64,000 nucleotides of DNA from Morchella semilibera (Eukaryota > Ascomycota > Pezizomycetes > Pezizales > Morchellaceae), in assembly GCA_009192285.1 (NCBI GenBank), contig WBVU01000003.1, positions 2,449,973-2,513,972 on the forward strand. Direction: 5' to 3'. Of the stretch, positions 23,116 through 64,000 are shown piece after piece (positions within the stretch are counted from its first letter, which is position 1; every line of letters starts with the position of its first letter). The notes below the pieces were generated by a model, which saw nothing but the letters and a program-made list of their open reading frames with translations, did not search any database and had not been told where the DNA came from. Both the position numbers and the translations under genes were made by a program.

Positions 23116-23778
23116 ATGGCCACCACCACCGCCCCGCCCCCGCCCGCTGTCCCCGCCCCCGTATTCCACAACCCTCACGACCGCCTCTCAACCACCTTCC
23201 CCGGGCGGCTCCTCCTCTGCACCATCGGCTCCTTCAGCACGGGCCTCCTGATCGGCGGCGCCCTCGGCAGCCGCCGCGCCGCGCTGCGCTTCCGCGCCGA
23301 GAACGCCCACCGCCTGCCCGCCAGCGAGCGCGGCTGGTACTTCTACCACAAGTCCAAGAACTACCGCGCGGCGCTCGGCGGAATCACGCAGGGCGTGCGC
23401 ACGGGCGCGCGCGTGTGGGCGTGGGCCAGCATGTTTGTTGTTACCGAGGAGGCGGTCGACCGCTTGGTGGGCCGTGCGGACTTTGTTGGTACTGTGGTTG
23501 CCGGGCTGGGTTTGTCGGGGTTCTTTAGCTTGTGGAGTGAGTGCCCCCTTTCTTTGTTTTGTGTTGTGTTTTTTTGAGGGAATGGGGGCCGCTGACTGGG
23601 CGCTTGTGGTGGTGGTGGGGGTTTGTTGGTGGGAATTGTAGATAGGTTATCGTATAGCATGACGATCACATCGGCGAAGCGGGGACTGGCGTTTGGGTTG
23701 GTGTTTGGGCTCGCGCAGGACTTGCTGATGATGAGGAGGAGGTGGGAGTGGAGTGCGCCGGAGAAGCAGTCAGGTTGA
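23116..23778 (+). CDS. Tim17/Tim22/Tim23-family membrane protein
   Basis: Two exons (23116-23536, 23642-23778) give 185 residues, with a Pro/Ala-rich N-terminus and then about four hydrophobic segments. The first is RLLLCTIGSFSTGLLIGGALG. The stretch ALGGITQGVRTGARVWAWAS resembles the Gly-rich helices of the Tim17/22/23 group, followed by FVGTVVAGLGLSGFFSLW and LAFGLVFGLAQDLL. This family forms mitochondrial inner-membrane translocase channels, and related proteins occur in other organelle membranes; the exact subfamily is not recognised. The start region is very GC-rich. The gene ends 242 bases from the convergent Dom34 gene. Confidence 0.7.
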
Positions 23779-24020: not shown

Positions 24021-25467
24021 TCACCTCTCAACATCTTCACCACCACCCCCTTCTTGTACTTCACCATTGTCCTCCTCGTCCTCCTCGTCCTCCTCGTCCT
24101 CCCCCGAGTCCCCCTCATCAAGGTCCCGCAACGGGAACGTCAATATCGCCGCAATGCCCCCCAACCCGTCCAGCCGTACCCCACTCTCATGGATACTACT
24201 CAACACCAGTGCCTCACCCCCAGCCTTCTTGACCTGCTCCACCATCCTGACATACCTCCTTCGCTCGGCAATCTTGTCACTGCGAAACAAGCTATTGCTC
24301 ACCAGCAGCGTGCCCACGGCGCCCTTCTCGACGGCGCGCGCAACCTCGCGTGGCCCGTACCACGCCCGCGTCTCGTCCGCGCTCATCATCTCGAAGAAGC
24401 TCTCGACGGCGCGCGTCTCGCGCGCAAACTTTGTGTCGGTCAGCTTGGCCACCACGGCCGGCGACTTGAGGACCTCGTTGAGCGAGTGGATGTGGCCGGA
24501 GGTGCAGTGCACCACGACGAACTTGGGCTTGGCGACGAGGACGGCGCGGGCGTCGGTGCGCAGCGCGGCGGCGAAGATGTGTTCGCGCAGACCCTCGGCG
24601 ACGAAGCCGGGGGAGGCGAGGAGGATCACTTTGAGGGCTGTAAAGTCAAAGTGCCGCAGGAGGGATTGGTAGGTGGCTTCGTAGAACTTTTCGAGACCCT
24701 GTCGGGGGTGAGTAGGTGATATGTTTGCGGGGGAGGAGGGGAGATACCTTTTCGTAGTTTGAGACTATGCCCCTCCGTTTTCGCGGAACGGGGACCTCCA
24801 CTTTCTGCCGTAGGACCGTCATATGGTCCGTAATAAAGCACACATTCGCCAGCCCTTTTACACGGCCATCATCAACCTATGCTCTCGAACAATAATAACG
24901 GCCTCCGCCATATATATACATATATATACATACATACCCTCCTGCAGCACCACGGCACCAATCTCTGACCTCTCCCCGGCATCGCACGCCTCCCTGATCG
25001 TGTTGAGCGTGACCGAGTCCCACTCTGCCTTTATGATGGTAAAGTTCCTGTGCAGCTCCAGGTCGAGGGTGTGGTGGGCGCCGACGGCCACATGCTTGTT
25101 CTCCTCGCAGACACGCCCGTTGAGGTGCAGCTGGCCGGCCTGGGCGTCAAAGTCCACCCTGTCCACCTGGATGGTGAGGACCGTCTGGATGCGATGGGAC
25201 TGCGTGGAGCCCGTCTTGGACTCGAGCGTAACGCGGCGGATGGCGTTGGCGCGGAGACGGTCGCCGGGGCGGATGAGGTTGAAGGCGTGCCACTGTAGGG
25301 AGAGAGAGGGTGTGTGAGATGGGTTAGGAGGAGGAGGAGGAGGAGGAGGAGGAGGAGGAGGAGGAGGAGGAAGAGGAGGAGGAGAGTACCATATCTTCGG
25401 GCTCTTCGGGGAAGAGGGTCACAAAGCCTGTCATGTCGCGCTCGACGGCTCTCCTTATTAACTTCAT
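24021..25467 (-). CDS. Dom34/pelota, ribosome-rescue factor
   Basis: Four exons (25467-25390, 25292-24938, 24854-24748, 24698-24021) give 405 residues in the order of the eRF1-like family. The N-terminal domain runs from MKLIRRAVERDMTGFVTLFP through WHAFNLIRPGDRLRA (about residues 1-130). The central domain has EGLANVCFIT and VEVPVPRKRRG. The C-terminal domain runs from about residue 275 and ends in a long Glu/Asp tail. There is no GGQ motif, as expected: Dom34, with the GTPase Hbs1, splits stalled ribosomes in no-go and non-stop decay rather than releasing peptides. Intron 1 (25293-25389) is almost entirely a GGA/TCC repeat. Strong C/G third-base use marks the 3' half. Confidence 0.95.
25326..25383. 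repeat. GGA trinucleotide repeat within Dom34 intron 1
   Basis: About 19 near-perfect GGA units (TCC on the coding strand) occupy most of the 97-nt intron. The tract gives a long polypyrimidine run ahead of the CTACAG acceptor. Confidence 0.85.
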
Positions 25468-51144: not shown

Positions 51145-52954
51145 ATGCTCGCCCCAACTCAACGGACCCTTCTACTTGCTCGTTCTCTACCTCTACGGAG
51201 GATTCAGCCCCTAACAACCCTCAGACTTCAATCAACGCTGAGTTCATCTGCGGCCACTGCAATCGCCTCCTCATCTCCTCCTCCTACTTCTCAAGCAGTA
51301 GTTAGTAAAGATGTCGAGGCTCCATTGGCAGTCCTTCCAACAACCAACTTGCTTCGCTCGTTGCTCCTACACTCAATTAGCTCCTCACCGCGTGTCCTGA
51401 AATTGGGGACAAAGGCCATGCTGGCCAATCTCGAGACAATGGATAAGAACTTCCTCCTCAAGTTGGCGGTTGATAAAACGTTCTATGTTTGTGCCCCCCT
51501 TGTCTAGAGAGTATTCGCCCCCACTTCATGACCAAGACGTAAACTAATTACACATTATTAGGCCCAATTCTGCGCTGGAGCCACCGCCGCTGAGATTTCG
51601 GGTACAGTTGAGAACTTCCGCTCCCTGGGATACGGGGGCGTGATCCTTACATATGTCAGAGAGGCGGAGATCACCGACACCTCAGCCAGCACTGAACTGC
51701 AGAACATCAGACAATGGTTGGACGGCACCCTCAAGACGATACAGTACGTCGATCCAAGGGACTATGTCGCTGTAAAGTACTCGGGTGCCGGATCCTCCTG
51801 CCTGCCGCTGTTGTCGCAACATAAGAAGTGCTTCAATCATCCGGAGCTCGGAGCGTCATTGATCAAGATATGTGAAGCGGCGAAGGAGAGAGGCGTAAAG
51901 CTGCTTATTGATGCGGAGCAGGCCGCTGATTCAGGATGGTGTTCATGGATGGACTCTGGTATGTTTACAATTTGCCTCCCAATTCAGCTCGATGGTTGTT
52001 TTAGAAGAGCACGAGACTCGTGCACCTGATCACCACTCCAACCACTAGTTCTATGGCACCACTTTCCGACGCTAACCGAGCGGCTTTAGGAGTTGATGCG
52101 GCGTTTCAACACCAAAGAGAGCGCGGTGGTCTACAACACGTACCAAATGTAAGGACCCCCGGATTAATTTTTAAACCGTAGACCCCCACCCTAGGCTCGT
52201 GCCCATCCCCCATGGGCTCAGCGCACCATAGTGGACATAGCGCAGTAGAAAATAAGGGGGGTGGCTGCGAGCCACGCAATGTGCGGAATCTCAAGTTTGG
52301 AATTTGACAGTTTGGGTTAGGTATTTGAAATCAACCCCGGAGATCCTTTGCCGGCACCTTGAAATTGCACGCCGCGAGGGATTCACTCTCGGCGTTAAGC
52401 TTGTGCGTGGAGCATATATCGGATCTGATCCGCGCGAGCTTATCCACGACACCAAAGCGGACACCGATAATGCCTACAATGAGGCCATCCACCTAATGCT
52501 AACAGGTTCACCAAAACCAGTATCTGAATGGTCATCTGCGGCCAACTCCAAGTCGCTTTTCGACGCCCCCGTGCAGAAGATTCTCGGAGGCGAGAACAAG
52601 GCAAGGGTCGACCTAGTGGTTGCATGCCACAACAGGGAGTCAATAGACATGGCGGTCGCCCTCAGACGCTCCATGACGGCCCAGGAGTGCGGTGTGGGCC
52701 GTCTCGTGTTCGCACAGCTTATGGGGATGGCAGACGAGCTCTCGCTGGGGCTGGTGGCCCAGGGGAGAAAGAAGACGCAGGCGCAGAGCGACTTTGACAT
52801 TGAGGTGTACAAGTACGCTGTCTGGGGCACCACCCAGGAGTGTGTGCGGTACCTCCTGAGACGCGCGGAGGAGAATAAGGATGCTGTAGGGAGGAGCATC
52901 GAGAACAGGGCCGCCGTTATGCAGGAGCTTTGGCGGAGAATTAGGGGCGGATAG
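51145..52954 (+). CDS. PUT1: Proline dehydrogenase, with one surplus base breaking the frame
   Basis: Four exons (51145-51486, 51562-51958, 52090-52148, 52321-52954) match mitochondrial proline dehydrogenase, which oxidises proline to pyrroline-5-carboxylate using FAD. The N-terminus is a Ser/Arg-rich presequence. Visible parts are AGATAAEISGTVENF, GVKLLIDAEQ, LELMRRFNTKESAVVYNTYQ, LGVKLVRGAYIGSDPREL, VACHN and YKYAVWGTTQECVRYLLRR. In exon 2, the frame of GVKLLIDAEQAA is one base off that of the following DGVHGWTLELMRRFN. The coding sum is 1432 bases, one over a multiple of three. The surplus base lies around 51928-51932. With it, translation stops early. Upstream and downstream conservation is otherwise intact, so a recent mutation or a sequence error is likelier than an old pseudogene. 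Confidence 0.9.
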
Positions 52955-54900
52955 CATAGCATAATTAACTAGCTAGCTAGCCCTAGCCCTGGTCTAGATC
53001 CGCTGTACTTTCTTTTTTTTTGGTTTTCATAAGCGTTATCTTTTTTTCCCTACATTTTTTTTTTTTTTTTTACTTTTTTCTCTTGACTAGTTTCTCCTTA
53101 GATTTCCACATTACCTAGCGGGACGAGGAGTGTAAATTAACACATTTTTTTCTTTCTTTCTTTCCTGGTGCTTTTAGACCTAGATTTAGAGGCCCTAATT
53201 GTGTGTATTTTTACTGTCTCCATCGGTCTTAGATGTCATGCCTTTAGTTAATGCAATAAATAGTCATGGGAGATCACTCGCGTGCCGAAGGGGATGTTAT
53301 GAAACCCCAAAAAGCTTGACATGGCTCGACTATGATTCAATCTTGCAGAGTTCCGTCTTACTGTCATGCACTAGCTACAACTTAACCCTTAAAGCTGCTC
53401 GAGGATGGGGGATTAACATCTTTTTATGCAGTCTATGCAGTCTATGCAGTCTATATTAGTTTATGCAGCTGCGCAGTCCACGAGTTGAACTAGTCCATAT
53501 GTGGTTGATTCTGCGTGCAATTCCTAGATCGGGATGGGTTTGAACTTCGCTAATCTTTGAGCTACTGTTAGCTCTTCATTTCATGGGCCGTGGTGAGAAG
53601 AAAAGGAGGGGGATGGGGCCCTTGTTCAGAGGGAGAGGAGAGGGTCTGTCAGCCCTAGCCCTATGTAGTTTACGGTCTGAAGGTCTGTAATGTGAATTTC
53701 AGTCATACCGGGCCGTCTTTTTTTTCTTCTTGATATTTATATATAGTGACGTGATGAGTTACATGTCCATGGGGAGCGCGGTCTTAAAGTCACCGGTACA
53801 TACTTGGGCTTTATCCTTTTGTTTGTGTTACTTGTAGGGACGACTCACACGCATATGATGTTTTATCGCATGCAGTGAGACGGGTGGTAGCTGATCGAGG
53901 CCGGGTAATCAGATGTTGCATCCCAGAGTCAGCATTACTCGAGTTCTGACTCTCAGTTCACAAGGTTTCTCTTCCTCTGGTCGGAGCTGGCGGTCTCGAG
54001 GATATTTTCAGCTGTGGGTGGGTAATCCAGATCCTTTACTATTAATGATATGTATAGTATACCTATACCTACCTGTTCCAGCCACAAGAGTGTTGATTTT
54101 TGGACTGGTCAGTCGAGTTGTCCAATATATATACAATATCCCCTTATAAACTACTTGTATGTATGTATTGTCATCCAGCAACCTTCACTGGGTTACCAAA
54201 TAAGCCTAGTGGATATCCTGCTTAGTTATCAGATACGACCTCTTAAGGATACGTCATAGTTTTCAATTGGACATGTGCCATTAAGAAAATCAGCTGCTCG
54301 AGAGAGATTCTGAATACAACAACGACGAGACTCATCGTCACCTCCGCCACTTTCTTCTCTCCTTGTCTCTCTCTCTCTCTCTCTCTCTTCACCATCAATG
54401 AATCAATGCAAGCTCTTGATCTCACTTGTACCTCTCTGCGTGGCCATCGACCCAAGTTTCATATCGAGTCAAGTGCGAGAACAGCACACCTCGCCGCCAT
54501 CATAAAAAAAGATCAGTCAGTCAGACCGTGGATTCCAGACACCATAATTACCTACCAGAAGTTACCAAAATCGCCCCCGCCCCCCCTCACTGATTGGACG
54601 TCACCCGCTATCACTCAGCCCCTACTATTCGTTGCCAAGGAAGCTGCAGGGTTAGGGCTCATGCATATCTAATTGCGACAATTCTCCTGATTCAGGTTCA
54701 CCAGCCAGGGGTAAGTTAGGGGAGCAAGGCCCGGTGTTAGGGAGGTAGCTACCAAGTATGTATGTCCCCCCCCCCCCCCTCCCGGAGGTCCGAACAACCT
54801 CTTCCCATAACACACCTACATACATATACACACACAACACATCTTGCAGCACTAGTTAAATAACAAACCGCGTCTAAAAAGAAAAGAAAAAAAAATACTC
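52955..54900. other. Intergenic region
   Basis: Nearly 2 kb with no conserved frame. T runs follow the proline dehydrogenase stop (53013-53075). A 9-bp tandem ATGCAGTCT repeat lies at 53426-53454. A CT repeat (54367-54389) and a C run (54766-54779) come before the ankyrin gene. Confidence 0.5.
53426..53454. repeat. Three tandem ATGCAGTCT units
   Basis: Three copies of a 9-bp unit occur head to tail. This is a short minisatellite without coding meaning. Confidence 0.85.
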
Positions 54901-55951
54901 ATGCCGCTACCTCGATCTCCCAAACGAGCTACTTCTGCAGGTTGCTCACGATGTTGATACCCCAACCCTCAGCGCACTCACGCTGACAAACCGCCGCCTC
55001 GCCCACCTCCTCTCCGCGGATCTCCTCAACACCGCGATCAAGAACCGCCGGTACAGTGCAACGGCTCTCTTGTTAGCAATAAATTACCAACAGGCTGCGC
55101 GGATCAAGCTCCTCCTCGAGCGGTCAACGCACATCACCATCAGTAGTAGATATGGCACCGTTATATATGACGGCGGTGTTTGTAAGATATGGCACAAGGA
55201 CATGAACCGCCTAGTTGACCGCCTTGTCGATGAGGGGAACACCGACCTCGTCATATTCGACAAATTTACTGGCCGCACCGCCTTGCACTGGGCCGCTGCT
55301 TACGGCGACGCGGCCATGGTCCGGAAGCTCCTTCTCCTCGGCGCGGGAAAGAACTATGTCAATGACCGCTCCGGCAAGACACCACTTCACTGCGCAACAG
55401 CCTCCGCAAACGTGACGGTAGTGCGCACGCTCTTAGAACACAAGCTGTGGAAAGCGGGTGAGCTCGACTTAGCCGACAAAGGTATCTACGAGCTCTGCGC
55501 ACTTCATTACGCGGTCCAGGCCGGGGATAGAACGACGACAGAGCTGCTACTGAAAGGTGGGGCGCGGGCGGATGTGACGAACGTGTTTGGCGAGACTGCG
55601 CTACATATGGCGGCACAGGCGCAGGATCTGGGTATGGTGAGGCTTCTACTGGGTGCGCGCGCGCATGTGGACGCGCAGGATGTGGATGGGGTAACGCCAC
55701 TACATTATTCAGTGGATAATAATGATATGGAGATGACAAGGGTGCTCGTGGACGCCGGCGCAGATATCCATAAACAGAGCATATCCTTCGGGACGCCATT
55801 TGTGCAGGCAGTCGTAAGGTGGGGAGAGGATATGGCGAGGGTGTTGAGCGAGAGTGAGTGGGAGAAGGTGAAGGGGAAGTCGGGAGCAAGCGTGATTGTC
55901 GAGCAGCTACAGGCTAGCCGTGAGAGAAGAGAGACAGGTGCGATCTTTTAA
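54901..55951 (+). CDS. F-box-like ankyrin-repeat protein, start codon one base out of frame
   Basis: A long open frame gives RYLDLPNELLLQVAHDVD near its start, which fits an F-box-like LPNELL helix, followed by about five or six ankyrin repeats. Typical repeat cores are GRTALHWAAAYGDAAMVRKL, GKTPLHCATASANVTVVRTL, CALHYAVQAGDRTTTELLL, GETALHMAAQAQDLGMVRLL and GVTPLHYSVDNNDMEMTRVL. Fungal proteins of this plan are common and may be adaptors for SCF ubiquitin ligases; targets are unknown. The best ATG, at 54901, is one base off the main frame. A TAA lies upstream in the main frame, and the first in-frame ATG is at 55203, after the F-box and first repeat. From 54901 to the stop is 1051 bases, one over a multiple of three. 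Confidence 0.75.
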
Positions 55952-57725
55952 GCACCTGGTGGTGTCTGTCGTTTTTTGTTTTTTCTGTTTTTTTCTGTTT
56001 TTTGTTTCCGTGCCGTGCACGCAGATTGTATAAATGATTGTGCTGTACTACATGTATTATTACGAATGTATTTTTATGGTTTTGGGAATGTGTTAGAAAT
56101 TGGGACTAGAGGGTGGGATCATGGAAACTCACTCGGAAGGGATATGTACATGTAGTTTTAGCGGGAAATGATTGTGTTTTATGTTTAGCCTCATACCGTG
56201 CAAGGTGAGATTGGAGCCTGATCATAGCTGCATAACTGATCAAGAGTCATTATATTACTCGGTAACCACATGTAGAACAAAGGAAGCAGGGGAACCTCCC
56301 TCCCCCCCTCTTCCATGGCTAAGCCAAAGAACACGGCACCCGTCTATACAGCCCACCTTACGGCAGTGCCGAGATATATGGAAACGTAAAACACACAGCC
56401 AAACCCCAGATCCAGCCAGCCCGCTGGCACGCACAAGCTCCATCACCCGAGTACGAAGCACTGGGGGGGGGGGAGTCGGGTGGTACTATACCTCTAGAGA
56501 TAGCCCCCCCCTTCGGCGCTGCTGTAAGTGTAGTGTGGCCGCCCTCTCCCAACATTACAATATGTCTATAACCCCGGGCGGGACGCGTGGGTGGGGTGGG
56601 GTGGGGGAGGTACTTACTTAATCATCACAGCTGTACCCCGGAAGGGGGGGGGACGCTAGGGTTAGGTGAAGGGGATGGGTTAGAACATACATGCGTTTAA
56701 ACCCCGGCGCCGGGAAAGAGGAAGGTCGTCGGTGAAGTTGGAGCTTACCTTACGAGGCCCGGGGGGGGGGGGCAGTGTTTAGGTGCACGATTGGATTATT
56801 AGATCTATTCAGCTCTCCTGATAAATAGCAGAAACATCAATTTATATATATCCCCCCCCCCCACCCCAGAGTGCAGCTTCGTGGACAAGTCAAAATTAAT
56901 ATCACATGTTGTACCAACTCTCTCACCAGGATGTGTCGAGTGATAACCTGTGCACCTAACCCCCCCCCCCCCCCCCCCCACACACACACACTAGATCACA
57001 TCATGAACAGCGAAATATAGAATCACATCTCAGAAAAAAAAAGGCGACCCAATATAGGCCAGAGATCAGCCTAACGACTCCTTCATAACTTTATACCCCG
57101 AAACCAAAGCATAAAAAAAAAAAAAAGCTACAGACTACATAACTAGCTGGACCATGCATGTAAAAAAAAAAAAAGAAAAAGGATTTTTTTTTTTCGTAGT
57201 TCCTCAACCAGACCGACCCACAAAGCGACTGAAAGGAAATGAAAGGAGACCCCACAAACCCCTTATCCTACCAGATTCTCCTATATGCATGCAGAAGAGA
57301 GCAACGAAAGAAAAAAACAACAACGGGAAAAGCCAAAATCGGAGCAAACCAGTAGCGAATGATGGGGGTAACTATATAAAAACGAATGAATAAGCATGGG
57401 GTAGTAAGGTATAATACTGGGCAAAGATTGTAATAGGAAGAGGATTGAAAGCATAGACACGAAAGGGGGAGCAACCACAACCAGGTTAATAAAGAAAGAA
57501 AAGAAAATAGCGCACGAATCCAGCCCTTGCATGATTTGAAATAAAGTTAAACAGCGAATGTAGAAGAAGAAGAAGGGTATCAGTAAAACCGATCCCATCA
57601 AACTAGCAAATATCAAAATATATGGATTGGTAAATGACCCCGCCAGGAAGAAAGAGAAGTATACCGTAAATGAATATGAAAAGAATACTAATGAAAAATA
57701 GAAATAACACCCTTAAGCAACATCG
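55952..57725. other. Convergent intergenic region rich in homopolymers
   Basis: About 1.8 kb between the ankyrin and SH3 genes. It has many long G or C runs (for example 56463-56472, 56761-56772, 56850-56860, 56961-56978) and A runs, and TACATGTA at 56049 and 56147. Several open frames exist but none resembles a protein family. Confidence 0.5.
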
Positions 57726-59712
57726 CTATCGCACCTGCAGATTGTTTTCGTTCGCCTTTCCTCGAAAACCATCGCCCTGCCGCTCAGGTGCATCGTAGTA
57801 GATATCACTTCCCCCATTAAGCCTGGGTACAATCCCTGCGCCATTTTGGCCAATATCTCCATTTTCTTGTGGTCGCTGCTGAGACGAGCTTTCTACCCCT
57901 GTTTCGTCATATCGCCCACCTCTAAGTCTAGGAGTCGAAGATTCCTCTGCTATTGCACGCTCTTGCTCTCGCTGCAGCTGAGCGATCCTCTCCTTATTAC
58001 TCGTGATTGTTGGAGTCATGTCGCCTGTGAAATCCGGCGAGTTTCTGCTGGCACGCGAGTGATGAGGGTTCTCTGGTAAGTGATCTGTGGCGTAGTTAAA
58101 ATGATACGGGTAAACGTCTTGCGAGGATGTCGAGAAAGTAGTGATTATGGGCGCAGTTTGTCCATTAGTATTGGTGCCCGTTGTGTCCAATGTGAGCTCG
58201 CCTTCCAATTGTCCCGATTCTGTGGAGGAAGATGGGGTCATGGTAGCCGGATCCATGCGATCATATGAAGCCCGGGCATCGCGAAACAGACGAACATATT
58301 CCTCCGGAATCAAACCCGTATCCCCTGCAGTCACGTAAGAAACAGTTCGAGCGTTTCGCCGGCTTGTCTGGCGTAAGGAGAAATCTACATACCAGTCCTG
58401 GGATCCTGCGCAACCAACCACCCCTGTCCATGCCTATAGCTAACCCACACAATTTGCCCTTCTACCAAGGGAAGCTCATTCTCATTCTCACTCGTAAAGT
58501 CAAACAAGGCGACAGCCTTTCCACTCATCTCTTCATCTGGGCTCGTTATCTGGAATTGGTAATCTCTGCTAAACCTGCTATCCTCGTCATCGTAGAGATC
58601 TTCACCTTCCTCTTCATCGTCATATTCATGCCCATCCTCGTCAGAATAATGATATTGATGTGAATTGTATTCAGGGTCATCCGGATCATATTCCTCCTCA
58701 CCATCTCCCTCCTGGTGATTGTACATCTCATCACCAGGTTCTCCGCCGGCGAGATCCGTGCGTCGTCCAGCGCGGGTTGTGTAGTAATCTCCCCCCGGAG
58801 AGATGCCGTTTTCGATCGCAGATCTCCGATCCCCATCCCATTCGTCACCCTGTCCTCCCCCCAGCATAGTGTTGCGACGTATTTGCATCACTACATTCTT
58901 ACTCTGCCCTCTTAAATGGTTACTCTGCATATGCGCAGCGGAAGATTTGTGCTTTCTGTGTTTCGGCAAAACAACAGGGCTTTGTAGATCCTCATCCTCA
59001 CTCCATGGTGGCCATCGGAGAAGTTAAGAGGCGGTGGCTGATTTGTGGACCTTTGGCGAGCTGCCGATGACTCCCACCCCCAGAGGCGCTGGTAGAAGTG
59101 ACATCATAAGAAGGATGGGCGGGATCTGAAAGTCGACGGTACCCAACTGCCCGCCGCCGGTGAACCAGGAGCTACCACCACCAGGAGTATTCTCAAATAT
59201 TCAGAGCCGCGCTGCGAGCCAGCAGGGGTGGAAAAGCCCCGAGGCGACGGAGGGACCGTAATGTAAAGGATGTAGTGAAGGATAGGCGAAATCTCGGACG
59301 GAAGTATAGGACAATGACGAAACAAATTGTGGTTGAACGAGTCGCGATTGGATGACAGGGTTTGACATGATGGAGATTCTAGTCGCCTGTGGAGGAGGGA
59401 ACGATGGGATTCGATGCTTACCTGGCTGTGGGGAAGCGGCTGGTGAGGCAGTTAAAAGTGAACGATAGACCTAGGAGAAGCAGGAGGTGGTTGGTTGGGT
59501 GTTGGGGGGTTCAATGAGGGATTGAAGAAGTGGAAAGTCGTTTTTTCTGCAGAAGATGTAGTCGCTAGTAGACTCGAGTTCCGGACAGAGGATGGTACTG
59601 AGTTAGAAGTAGAAATAGATTGCTCTGAACCAGCAGTAGCCTCGGGGGATTCAGAAATGGTACATGTAGTCTGAGGGCCTGGAGAATGAGGGGATGGAGT
59701 GGGAGAAGCCAT
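57726..59712 (-). CDS. SH3-domain adaptor, Nbp2/Skb5 type
   Basis: Three exons (59712-59471, 59000-58394 with the donor at 58392, 58324-57726) sum in phase to about 482 residues. The N-terminus is Ser/Thr/Pro-rich, the middle is strongly acidic (many Glu/Asp/Tyr near residues 130-190), and the SH3 domain (about residues 215-290) reads AVALFDFTSENENELPLVEG, WVSYRHGQGWLVAQD and TGDTGLIPEEYVRLF, where ALFDF and the GW pair mark the ligand groove. Yeast Nbp2 and fission yeast Skb5 link the kinases of stress and cell-wall pathways to phosphatase or PAK partners. The 3' half is disordered. The first intron (470 nt, donor GTCTAT) is unusually long here and rests on phase only, so the first exon is the least certain part. 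Confidence 0.8.
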
Positions 59713-61368
59713 ACTGATCACCTCGGAGTATAAGGAGGAGGTGAGGAAGGGGGGTAGTAAAATGAAGGGAAAGAGAAGCCTATGTTGGTAAATGGGGGAA
59801 GAGGGGGGGGTTGTTGAAAGAGGGGCGATGTGAAGATGTGGGGGGGGGGGGGGGGGTTGAAGATGGATGACGGCGGGGGAGGGGAGGAGGGGGGGGGGAC
59901 GCTATGTATGATGAACAGGGCTGGAAAGAGAACGTATGAATGAAAAGGAATGAAAGCAAAAAACGCGATTATCCTAGTTCCCCAAACTCTGACTATCGGA
60001 GGATTGATTGTTATCGTGTGTACGGGTGGCTGTGTGCTGTCTGTACCTGGAGCGGTGCAGCGACGTATGGGGCCTATGTACAGTAATGTGTATGTACCAA
60101 AGGGAAGCAAGTGTCGTTTGGAAACCTCAGTAACAATAACCAGCCAGTAATGACACGGGCAGTACAAAAGCGGGGAGTAAAACAGCGAGGTGCAGATAGA
60201 TAGACAGATAGACAGTTGCACGCTGCAGGGAGCAACAGAGACAGACTGAAAGTGAGGTAGGCTGAGGAGGGGTCCTCTAGCGATCCGAGGGTGATTGATT
60301 GATTCTGATTGATGATGTTGTTCCGCGAGCGTGCCTGGCTGCTTGCGTTTTTGTCTGTTATGGATGGAAGAAGAAGAAGAGAAGACTTAAGGGAACAACG
60401 GACAACTCCCAGCTAAAGTCATTCTGATTTTACACCAACGAACCCCTCCTCAATAAAGTCTTCATCTCCTAGGGTCCAAAAAAGAAGTCTTTACCCATGG
60501 GTCTAATAAATGCCTGTATCTTTCGTTACCTACTTACATGTATGTACTTACTTTGTGGATAAGTACATGTAAATGTGCTTTTAAAAAGTACATGTATGCA
60601 TCACTGATTAAAAACTCCCATGAAGTCTCAACCTTTACCGAGTGTACATGTAATGTTAGAGAACTCTAGTAGGAACAAAAACATGAAATAACAAGATAGA
60701 GATGTCTCAATTCTTTCGTTAGACACCACCACCTTCCCCTCTCTACAGGGTCCTCACTTACCTCCCTGGGGAAGGTCGCTTTCTGATTGTGCGCTCCTAT
60801 TCGCCTATCTTTTTGATCATAGACGCCTTTTTCCTCGTGCATCGTCGTGCTCAACTATTTTTAGACATGTATTGGACTTGGCAATGGTTTTCTTGGCTGG
60901 CCCCTGTTACATCGTTGCCTTCCTTGTCTGTCAATTCCCGAACCTCAACCTCAGTTTTCAAACAAACATCAGTTCATCATCATCACCATCCTCCAAACTG
61001 CAACAAGAATCTCATAAAAAGTACAGGAAACCAACAAAAGCATCCCCATCACATTATCATAAGGTATATATTCTTCCATATATCCGATTATCTCTTGTGT
61101 TCACCACCCTTGTTTCTTGCCCCTCCCTCGAGAAAAAAGAAATCGACAGTATGATGAACATTAAAAATATTGGAGCTGTCCTATGTCACTCCGGTGTCAT
61201 TGAGGAGAGAACAAATTATACGCAAACTTCTGACTTCATTTCCCAAATACCCCTCCTGCATACCCCTCATCATAAATCTCGTACCTGAACTAGTCGCTAA
61301 TAATTTGCCTCCTTCATTGAATTTCAGCCAGCCGCTACCACAGGGAAAAAAAAAGGGTGTCAAACAAG
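59713..61368. other. Divergent intergenic region, SH3 adaptor and Ssu72
   Basis: About 1.65 kb. The 190 bases next to the SH3 gene start are extremely G-rich on the plus strand. Further along are four TACATGTA copies (60535, 60564, 60589, 60644) within about 120 bases. No gene is supported. Confidence 0.5.
60535..60651. repeat. Four clustered TACATGTA palindromes
   Basis: Exact copies begin at 60535, 60564, 60589 and 60644, several within wider (A)GTACATGTA(AC) contexts. They form the densest cluster of this motif in the window. Confidence 0.8.
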
Positions 61369-62843
61369 ATGCAGGCTCAGCCACAACAACAACAAGCTTC
61401 GTCAGCTATGGTGGAAGCATCGGCGCAAGGACCTGTCGATAGTGCTGAAAAGAAGGACTTCCCACTAAAATTTTGTACTGTTTGTGCTAGTAATCAGAAT
61501 CGGTTTGTCAACTTCCGCTTTGCCTTCCTTTCCTCTACACTCCCCACCCCAAATTGTTTCAATGATTGCCACCACAACCCCCTAGAGTGCCCAGGAAGTG
61601 GTGGGGTGAGAAATTTCCTGCTCCCCTCTTATCCTCAAATGTAGAATTTTCATTCCATGTAAAGGCGAGAGCTGGATATGGATGATTGAGATGAGTGAGT
61701 GAGTGAGAGTGCGGCCCGTGAGATGACTATACCCTACTACCGCTAGCCCTGGGAGAAGGTAACTCTCGCTACCTATACGGGGGCAAGTGCTGCGTATTGC
61801 ATCACCTGGTAGGCGGGGCCCAAGGTTGAGCACACCCTAGCTGATAAGGGCTGTTGTGCTGCGGCGCGAAAGCTGCGGCTGATTACCGCTTGGTGCCCGG
61901 CGGCTATCAGGTGAAGTATGCTCAACTGAGGGGTCGGCTCGATTGGGAAGCGGCGGTTAGTACGCAGTACTATCAATAATCTCTCACCACTCTCCCAAAG
62001 CTCATCTCATATCTCCAGTTTCTCTCTCTCGCCAAGAAAAAACCCCGGGAGAGAGGTCTGGGCAACATTGTTATTAAACACGTACAATAGCAAAAGAAAC
62101 AAACATGCACCTGCTTTGCAATCATGACCCCCCATAACTCTATGACGCCCAAATACTGAGTCCATATCGTGCTACACAGTTCAATGGAAGCCCACCTCGT
62201 CCTCTCACTTGCGTCCTATCCCGTGATCTCATTCGGCACGGGCTCTGCCGTCCGTCTTCCTGGTCCCTCAATCGACAAACCAAATATCTATTCCTTCAAC
62301 TCTACTACCTACGATGAAATGTATCAAGAACTTAAACACAAAGACCCGCGTCTTTATACAGCCAATGGACTTCTAGGCATGCTGGACCCGAAACCGGCAT
62401 ATCAAAGGGAGCCCAGAGAGATGGCAAGATTGGAAAGTAGGTGTGCCGAGGAAAGACGGTGTTCAGGACGGAGTTGTAGACGTGGTTTTCACTTGTGAGG
62501 AGAGATGCTGGGACATTGTGGTTGAAGGTTTGTATACCCCTTCATTACAATATTGCCATATCTAATGAGTAAAATAGACCTCCTCAACCGCAACTCGCCA
62601 CTAAACCGCCTCGTTCATATCATAAACGTGGATATCAAGGATAACCACGAAGAAGCTGTTGTGGGGGGCAAGGGTATTCTTGAATTAGCCAATATGCTGA
62701 CCGCCGCCGCGAGAGAAGAGAGGGAAAAGCATGGAGAGGCATATATGAGGGATAGCGTCGACAAGAGAGTGCCAGAGATTTTGGCCAGTTGGCAGGAGAA
62801 GTTTCCAAATCTCCCAGCGTTGTGGACGGTTGGGTATTTCTAG
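61369..62843 (+). CDS. SSU72: Ssu72, RNA polymerase II CTD phosphatase, with one surplus base
   Basis: Three exons (61369-61502, 62180-62527, 62578-62843) encode the small Ssu72 phosphatase. The active-site loop [12 protein letters not shown] spans the first splice and gives the CX5R signature. Further conserved parts are [74 protein letters not shown] and the C-terminal [10 protein letters not shown]. Ssu72 removes phosphate from Ser5/Ser7 of the CTD and works in 3'-end processing and termination. Between LLGMLD and RNRHIKG the frame moves by one base, in GGACCCGAAAC near 62385-62388, where one C is surplus. The coding sum is 748 bases, one over a multiple of three. Intron 1 (677 nt) is the longest seen in the window. 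Confidence 0.92.
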
Positions 62844-63479: not shown

Positions 63480-64000
63480 ATGCCTGCACCACCTCCCCCT
63501 CCCCCACCTCTCCCGTCATTCGGGGGCGGACCACCTCCACCTCCACCACCACCTCCTCCGCCTGGTGGAGCTCCTGCTCCTCGCCCGGCTCCCAATAGGG
63601 TATACCCCCCAACAAAACACCATAGATTCCCATCATCTAACCTTCCAGTCCAGGGCGGCCTCAATAATGAAATCGCACAAGGTTTCAAGCTCAGAAAGGT
63701 TACACAGGTTAACGACCGTAGTGCACCTGCTGTTTCCGGAAAGCTTACAGACAGCGCACCGGTTAAGGCACCTAGCTTAGGGGCACCCCCGGTCCCTGGG
63801 AGTGCGCCGAGAGTGCCGAGTGCAGCTGCTCCAAGGATTCCCAGTGGGGGTGCTCCTAGTACTACAGCAAGAATGAGAGCGAGTAGTGGCAGTAGCAGCT
63901 ACACTCCGGCGGAACCAGGACCTCAACTGGCGGGTTTGTTTGCTGGGGGTATGCCCACCCTAAGAAGCACAAAGGGCGGTGTGAATACAGGTGGTACGTG
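63480..64000 (+). CDS. Verprolin/WIP-type actin-binding protein, N-terminal part
   Basis: The gene is cut by the window end. Exon 1 (63480-63599) starts MPAPPPPPPPLPSFGGG and continues as a polyproline stretch to APAPRPAPNR. The second exon, from 63654, gives GGLNNEIAQGFKLRKVTQVN, a WH2-like actin-monomer motif with the LKKV-type core as KLRKV. A Ser/Pro/Ala-rich region follows with no stop to the window end. Verprolins bind G-actin, hand WASP to the Arp2/3 complex and support actin patches, endocytosis and polarity. The acceptor was taken as CAGTCCAG because it keeps the WH2 frame. The C-terminal WASP-binding part would lie beyond 64000. Confidence 0.85.
   Translation, partial: MPAPPPPPPPLPSFGGGPPPPPPPPPPPGGAPAPRPAPNRVYPPTKHHRFPSSNLPVQGGLNNEIAQGFKLRKVTQVNDRSAPAVSGKLTDSAPVKAPSLGAPPVPGSAPRVPSAAAPRIPSGGAPSTTARMRASSGSSSYTPAEPGPQLAGLFAGGMPTLRSTKGGVNTGGT

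Follow-up and report, generated by a model that had tools for sequence, protein, structure and literature searches.

Background

Programmed +1 ribosomal frameshifting is known in fungi from Ty1, Ty3, EST3, ABP140 and antizyme of yeast, where slow codons or stops stand at the shift and the shift occurs once per gene. A stretch of 64,000 nucleotides in a morel genome assembly (Morchella semilibera in GenBank, GCA_009192285.1, contig WBVU01000003.1, positions 2,449,973 to 2,513,972; hereafter the window) contains three neighbouring genes, encoding proline dehydrogenase, an F-box/ankyrin protein and the phosphatase Ssu72, that each carry one surplus base. They resemble the yeast genes in that one base is skipped and the next frame continues, but the yeast sites are recognisable and used once per gene, whereas the morel genes share no site and some genes beside them change frame several times and with both signs. 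The other described system to which the locus may be compared is that of residual insertions and deletions (indels) in long-read and hybrid assemblies, which likewise break reading frames while the encoded protein stays conserved; nothing essential is different in the morel, although the errors here seem to be unevenly spread along scaffolds. Indels are described in PMC8445201 as the predominant long-read errors, with genes often misannotated as pseudogenes, and the same source describes apparent frameshifts of Trypanosoma brucei that were sequencing or assembly artefacts and were corrected by reassembly. Collapsed alleles were part of the cause in T. brucei by that account, whereas the morel strain is a single-spore isolate.

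The surplus bases are, with a probability of roughly 0.92, residual consensus errors that are clustered in the published assembly of strain M10M26. The finding is most likely an ordinary one, with nothing new on how genes are read.

Frame changes at the window

The surplus of one base per gene was reproduced from exon coordinates, with coding totals of 1432 bases for proline dehydrogenase, 1051 for the F-box/ankyrin gene and 748 for Ssu72. In proline dehydrogenase (exons 51145-51486, 51562-51958, 52090-52148 and 52321-52954), a Pfam search placed positions 4-91 of the Pro_dh profile in one frame and positions 93-274 in the next, and these coordinates place the change of frame in exon 2, between about 51925 and 51947. 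In Ssu72 (exons 61369-61502, 62180-62527 and 62578-62843), profile positions 1-93 are followed by positions 82-189 in the next frame, and a solved Ssu72 structure (PDB 9syq) aligns to both halves (chain residues 7-98, then 88-197); reading together with this alignment puts the change at about 62385-62391, in exon 2. The earlier note, which had proposed from the letters that family conservation resumes in the next frame of both genes, is borne out by the Pfam results, which leave no room for an intron. At 677 bases, the first Ssu72 intron (61503-62179) is long in comparison with the 50-172 bases of the rest in this gene and in proline dehydrogenase.

The case for a frame change is weaker for the F-box/ankyrin gene, in which the best ATG (54901, with the stop at 55951) is indeed out of register by one base with the long open frame 54878-55951, and upstream of this ATG the open frame offers AAG acceptors only. 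The frame change was placed at 54904-54908 by reading, and a coding model that makes no use of homology calls one at 54907. The F-box label comes from the earlier note's reading; a Pfam search of the gene matched ankyrin families and no F-box family at E 0.001. The coding model made no frameshift call in Ssu72, and its call in proline dehydrogenase, at 52305, is of the opposite sign and away from the junction.

The further proposal that exactly one base is added in each of the three genes, with clean sequence between, proved wrong or incomplete, as neighbouring genes change frame several times and with both signs. The SH3-domain gene, which had been counted as clean, reads with about five apparent frame changes at 59.3-59.0 kb, mostly in the missing-base direction (three frames compared by eye, in a low-complexity stretch); the coding model called none of them (gain 0.0), and it is with moderate confidence that several changes of both signs are placed in this gene upstream of 59.0 kb. 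A WIP/verprolin-like gene that crosses the window edge has about six changes at about 64.24-64.65 kb by three-frame reading by eye, five with a surplus base and one with a missing base, and the coding model makes four calls in it (64268, 64380, 64512 and 64585), two of each sign. The reading of both genes rests on the frames themselves and on comparison with related fungal proteins. A further gene on this scaffold, roughly 150 kb to the left (C19:2350026-2352076, window coordinates about -99.95 to -97.9 kb), is affected as well, with several frame changes and five model calls at a gain of 29.7. Frame changes at the window thus have both signs and fall in several unrelated genes.

Within the conserved pieces that were read at the window there are no stops. 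When the genome was searched, no second DNA copy was found for the affected stretches: proline dehydrogenase, Ssu72 exons 2-3, the SH3 stretch 58700-59760 and the first 900 bases beyond the window edge (WIP/verprolin-like) each occur in a single place. The ankyrin protein has at least 198 genome matches, mostly to its ankyrin repeats, but the next-best match is only 37% identical, and for that reason no intact second copy of the gene was found.

The source assembly and probable residual consensus errors

The assembly that contains the window consists of 56,756,124 bases in 23 sequences, of which the longest (C1) has 7,341,407, and it is the published assembly of Morchella crassipes M10M26, listed with 56,756,124 bp and a longest scaffold of 7,341,407 bp (PMC7014384, Table 1). 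M10M26 is a monospore (single-spore) isolate whose DNA was sequenced by Illumina and on two PacBio RSII SMRT cells (P6-C4); the assembly was made with ALLPATHS-LG, DBG2OLC, FALCON, Quickmerge, SSPACE and GapCloser (PMC7014384). The Methods section of that paper describes no later polishing, and neither 'polish' nor 'Pilon' appears in its main text (PMC7014384).

Elsewhere in the same assembly there is an indel-rich patch. Two scaffolds, C21 and C22, share a locus, and a comparison of 1,700 bases of it shows 14 gaps (15 bases) as against two adjacent substitutions. Seven of the gaps go each way, all but one are of a single base, and by eye 14 of 14 lie within runs of at least two equal bases. 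The kinase open frames of the two copies are 154 and 259 amino acids in one case and 375 in the other. True divergence normally yields more substitutions than indels. Because the gaps outnumber the substitutions, the difference bears the mark of long-read consensus error; the comparison was made away from the window, which has no second copy of its own. Scaffolds C9 and C10, unlike C21 and C22, are identical across 9,952 bases, and the errors are therefore patchy.

The mechanism is probably as follows. Some patches of the assembly would rest mainly on PacBio continuous long reads, whose errors are mostly insertions and deletions of single bases, and such indels could outlast the consensus into the final scaffold and break reading frames there. 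The patch at the window would extend from about 51.9 kb to about 64.7 kb, past the window edge, and take in five neighbouring genes. Consensus error, which had been one of the explanations put forward in the earlier note, is strongly supported by the assembly methods and by the C21/C22 gaps.

Several points weigh against residual consensus error. That these particular sites are errors is inferred from the assembled sequence rather than from mapped raw reads. The three original sites all have the same sign, which has a chance of 1 in 4 if signs are random, and they lie outside long homopolymers. It is conceivable that C21 and C22 are diverged copies instead of one sequence assembled twice. A search with a kinase found by eye no frame change (at least 150 matches, with 123 of 350 candidates scored), and a search with a chaperonin left none (30 matches, with 31 of 31 scored) once a pair in C23, whose 20-base gap looked like a frameshift, had been recognised as an ordinary intron; the silence of this screen is weak evidence, because the conflicting C21 kinase also escaped it. 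For a complete account of the assembly, the Methods section of PMC7014384 points to an earlier paper, in which polishing may be described, and DBG2OLC includes a consensus module of its own.

The result holds no new biology, and its use is as a warning that a published morel reference has patches of indel errors and near-duplicate stretches of scaffold. Gene models, counts of pseudogenes and gene families, and size estimates taken from this assembly should be verified against the reads, which for M10M26 are within SRR10230725-SRR10230733 (PMC7014384). The same kinase and ankyrin matches were observed at nearly equal coordinates in C9/C10, C12/C13 and C21/C22. The published assembly probably holds redundant scaffold copies, which may inflate its size.

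Alternative explanations

Real frameshift mutations might have broken some genes of the single-spore strain, an explanation that is improbable overall, most plausible for the F-box/ankyrin gene and unlikely for Ssu72. The ankyrin group is variable and, as its genome matches attest, large, so that the loss of one member might be tolerable, and the frame change at the start of the ankyrin gene is also called without homology. Exons 2-3 of Ssu72, on the other hand, are single-place DNA, and Ssu72 is essential in yeast; moreover, five adjacent genes with apparent indels, whose conserved pieces read free of stops, are unlike decaying genes. The frame might instead be kept by unrecognised splicing, since in-frame GT-AG forms exist for both proline dehydrogenase and Ssu72, but by eye every such form loses conserved residues. 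For proline dehydrogenase, 12 in-phase GT-AG pairs were listed between exons 2 and 3; one of them, with its donor at 51895 and its acceptor side at 52090, is open, and by reading it loses the stretch around LLIDAEQ. For Ssu72, many GT-AG forms are open among the 69 internal pairs and 2640 flanking combinations that were enumerated; the mildest removes 43 bases (62437-62479) and keeps the FTCEERCWD block, but it puts the stretch from RNR to ERWQDW out of frame, and 9syq matches that stretch in the other frame. As an intron would not fit at either junction by the Pfam coordinates, with the frame switching within about 20 bases or fewer, splicing is a very improbable explanation.

Programmed +1 ribosomal frameshifting, or RNA editing that removes a base, would restore the frame and would fit the way in which the conserved protein continues without a break in the next frame of proline dehydrogenase and Ssu72. 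The earlier note's observation that the three sites share no slippery motif holds, however, in that the letters at the junctions differ by eye and no motif is common to them in phase; the sole six-letter word common to two junctions, GCCGCT, differs in phase between them. Frame changes in the neighbouring genes go both ways, with about six counted by eye in a single gene, and we know of no frameshifting programme that gives several changes of both signs per gene. Of the eight papers, among 2,223 searched, that came up for Morchella and frameshifting, one names Morchella, and it is a mycovirus review. Programmed frameshifting has no support here and, like base-removing editing, is highly unlikely to account for the genes. 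Scarcely any likelihood attaches to the broader proposition that morels tolerate or correct frame errors in nuclear mRNA by frequent frameshifting or editing, with Ssu72 working despite its surplus base. Given the lack of a common site, the two signs and the several changes within single genes, neither frameshifting nor editing is needed in addition to residual consensus errors.

Neighbouring genes

The genes of the affected part of the window are listed in Table 1. Of the 10 pieces that were scanned with Pfam for these readings, eight matched no family. The WIP/verprolin-like gene has a weak match to WH2 (E 0.0092), under the curated cut-off, and a PDB search with its C-terminus returned one meaningless match (E 2.1). 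The gene at C19:2350026-2352076 has a G+C content of 65%, and none of its four scanned pieces hit a Pfam family at E 0.01. Runs of at least nine C or G bases were counted by eye, and 11 of the window's 20 fall in 50-64 kb; such runs look denser across this part.

Table 1. Genes with apparent frame changes at the right-hand part of the window, in window coordinates
Gene	Position	Strand	Features
Proline dehydrogenase gene	51145..52954	+	4 exons, 1432 coding bases; Pfam Pro_dh
F-box/ankyrin gene	54901..55951	+	1051 bases from best ATG; ankyrin families
SH3-domain gene	57726..59712	-	SH3_1; 57.7-59.0 kb open
Ssu72 phosphatase gene	61369..62843	+	3 exons, 748 coding bases; Pfam Ssu72, PDB 9syq
WIP/verprolin-like proline-rich gene, start	63480..64000	+	continues to about 64.8 kb beyond window edge

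Performance of the coding model

In its first version, the coding model ran genes together across long introns and called no frameshift at all; a retuned version made two calls. The scan was run with a frameshift cost of 5 over 262 overlapping two-kilobase segments, eight of which had a gain of at least 6: two in the left-end gene, four at 52-66 kb, one in a retroelement-like gene and one in a gene that we take to be pelota-like. Of the four at 52-66 kb, two see the same WIP-like sites and one holds the call in proline dehydrogenase at 52305. Of 240 simulated single-base changes the model detected 187 (100 of 126 insertions and 87 of 114 deletions), a rate obtained only from exons already called clean, so that the true sensitivity is lower.

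Between 2.9 and 49.2 kb, where the earlier note had found every fully contained gene to sum cleanly, the model makes calls at 23765, 24746, 25390 and 37266 and several others with a gain of 1.4 or less. Those other than 25390 are weak, and the call at 25390, one of two in its segment of the pelota-like gene, reads as an ordinary intron. The clean sums given for this stretch in the note are not contradicted by the calls. A call at -13.4 kb, in a gene that is presumably dihydroxy-acid dehydratase-like, is likewise an intron on reading, and a call at -69 kb lies within the retroelement-like gene and was left out of the count. Additional calls were made at -90.6, -63.0, 90.8 and 108.6 kb. At window coordinate 90819, in the right flank of the window on C19, a possible frame change is found near a G run in a coiled-coil gene.

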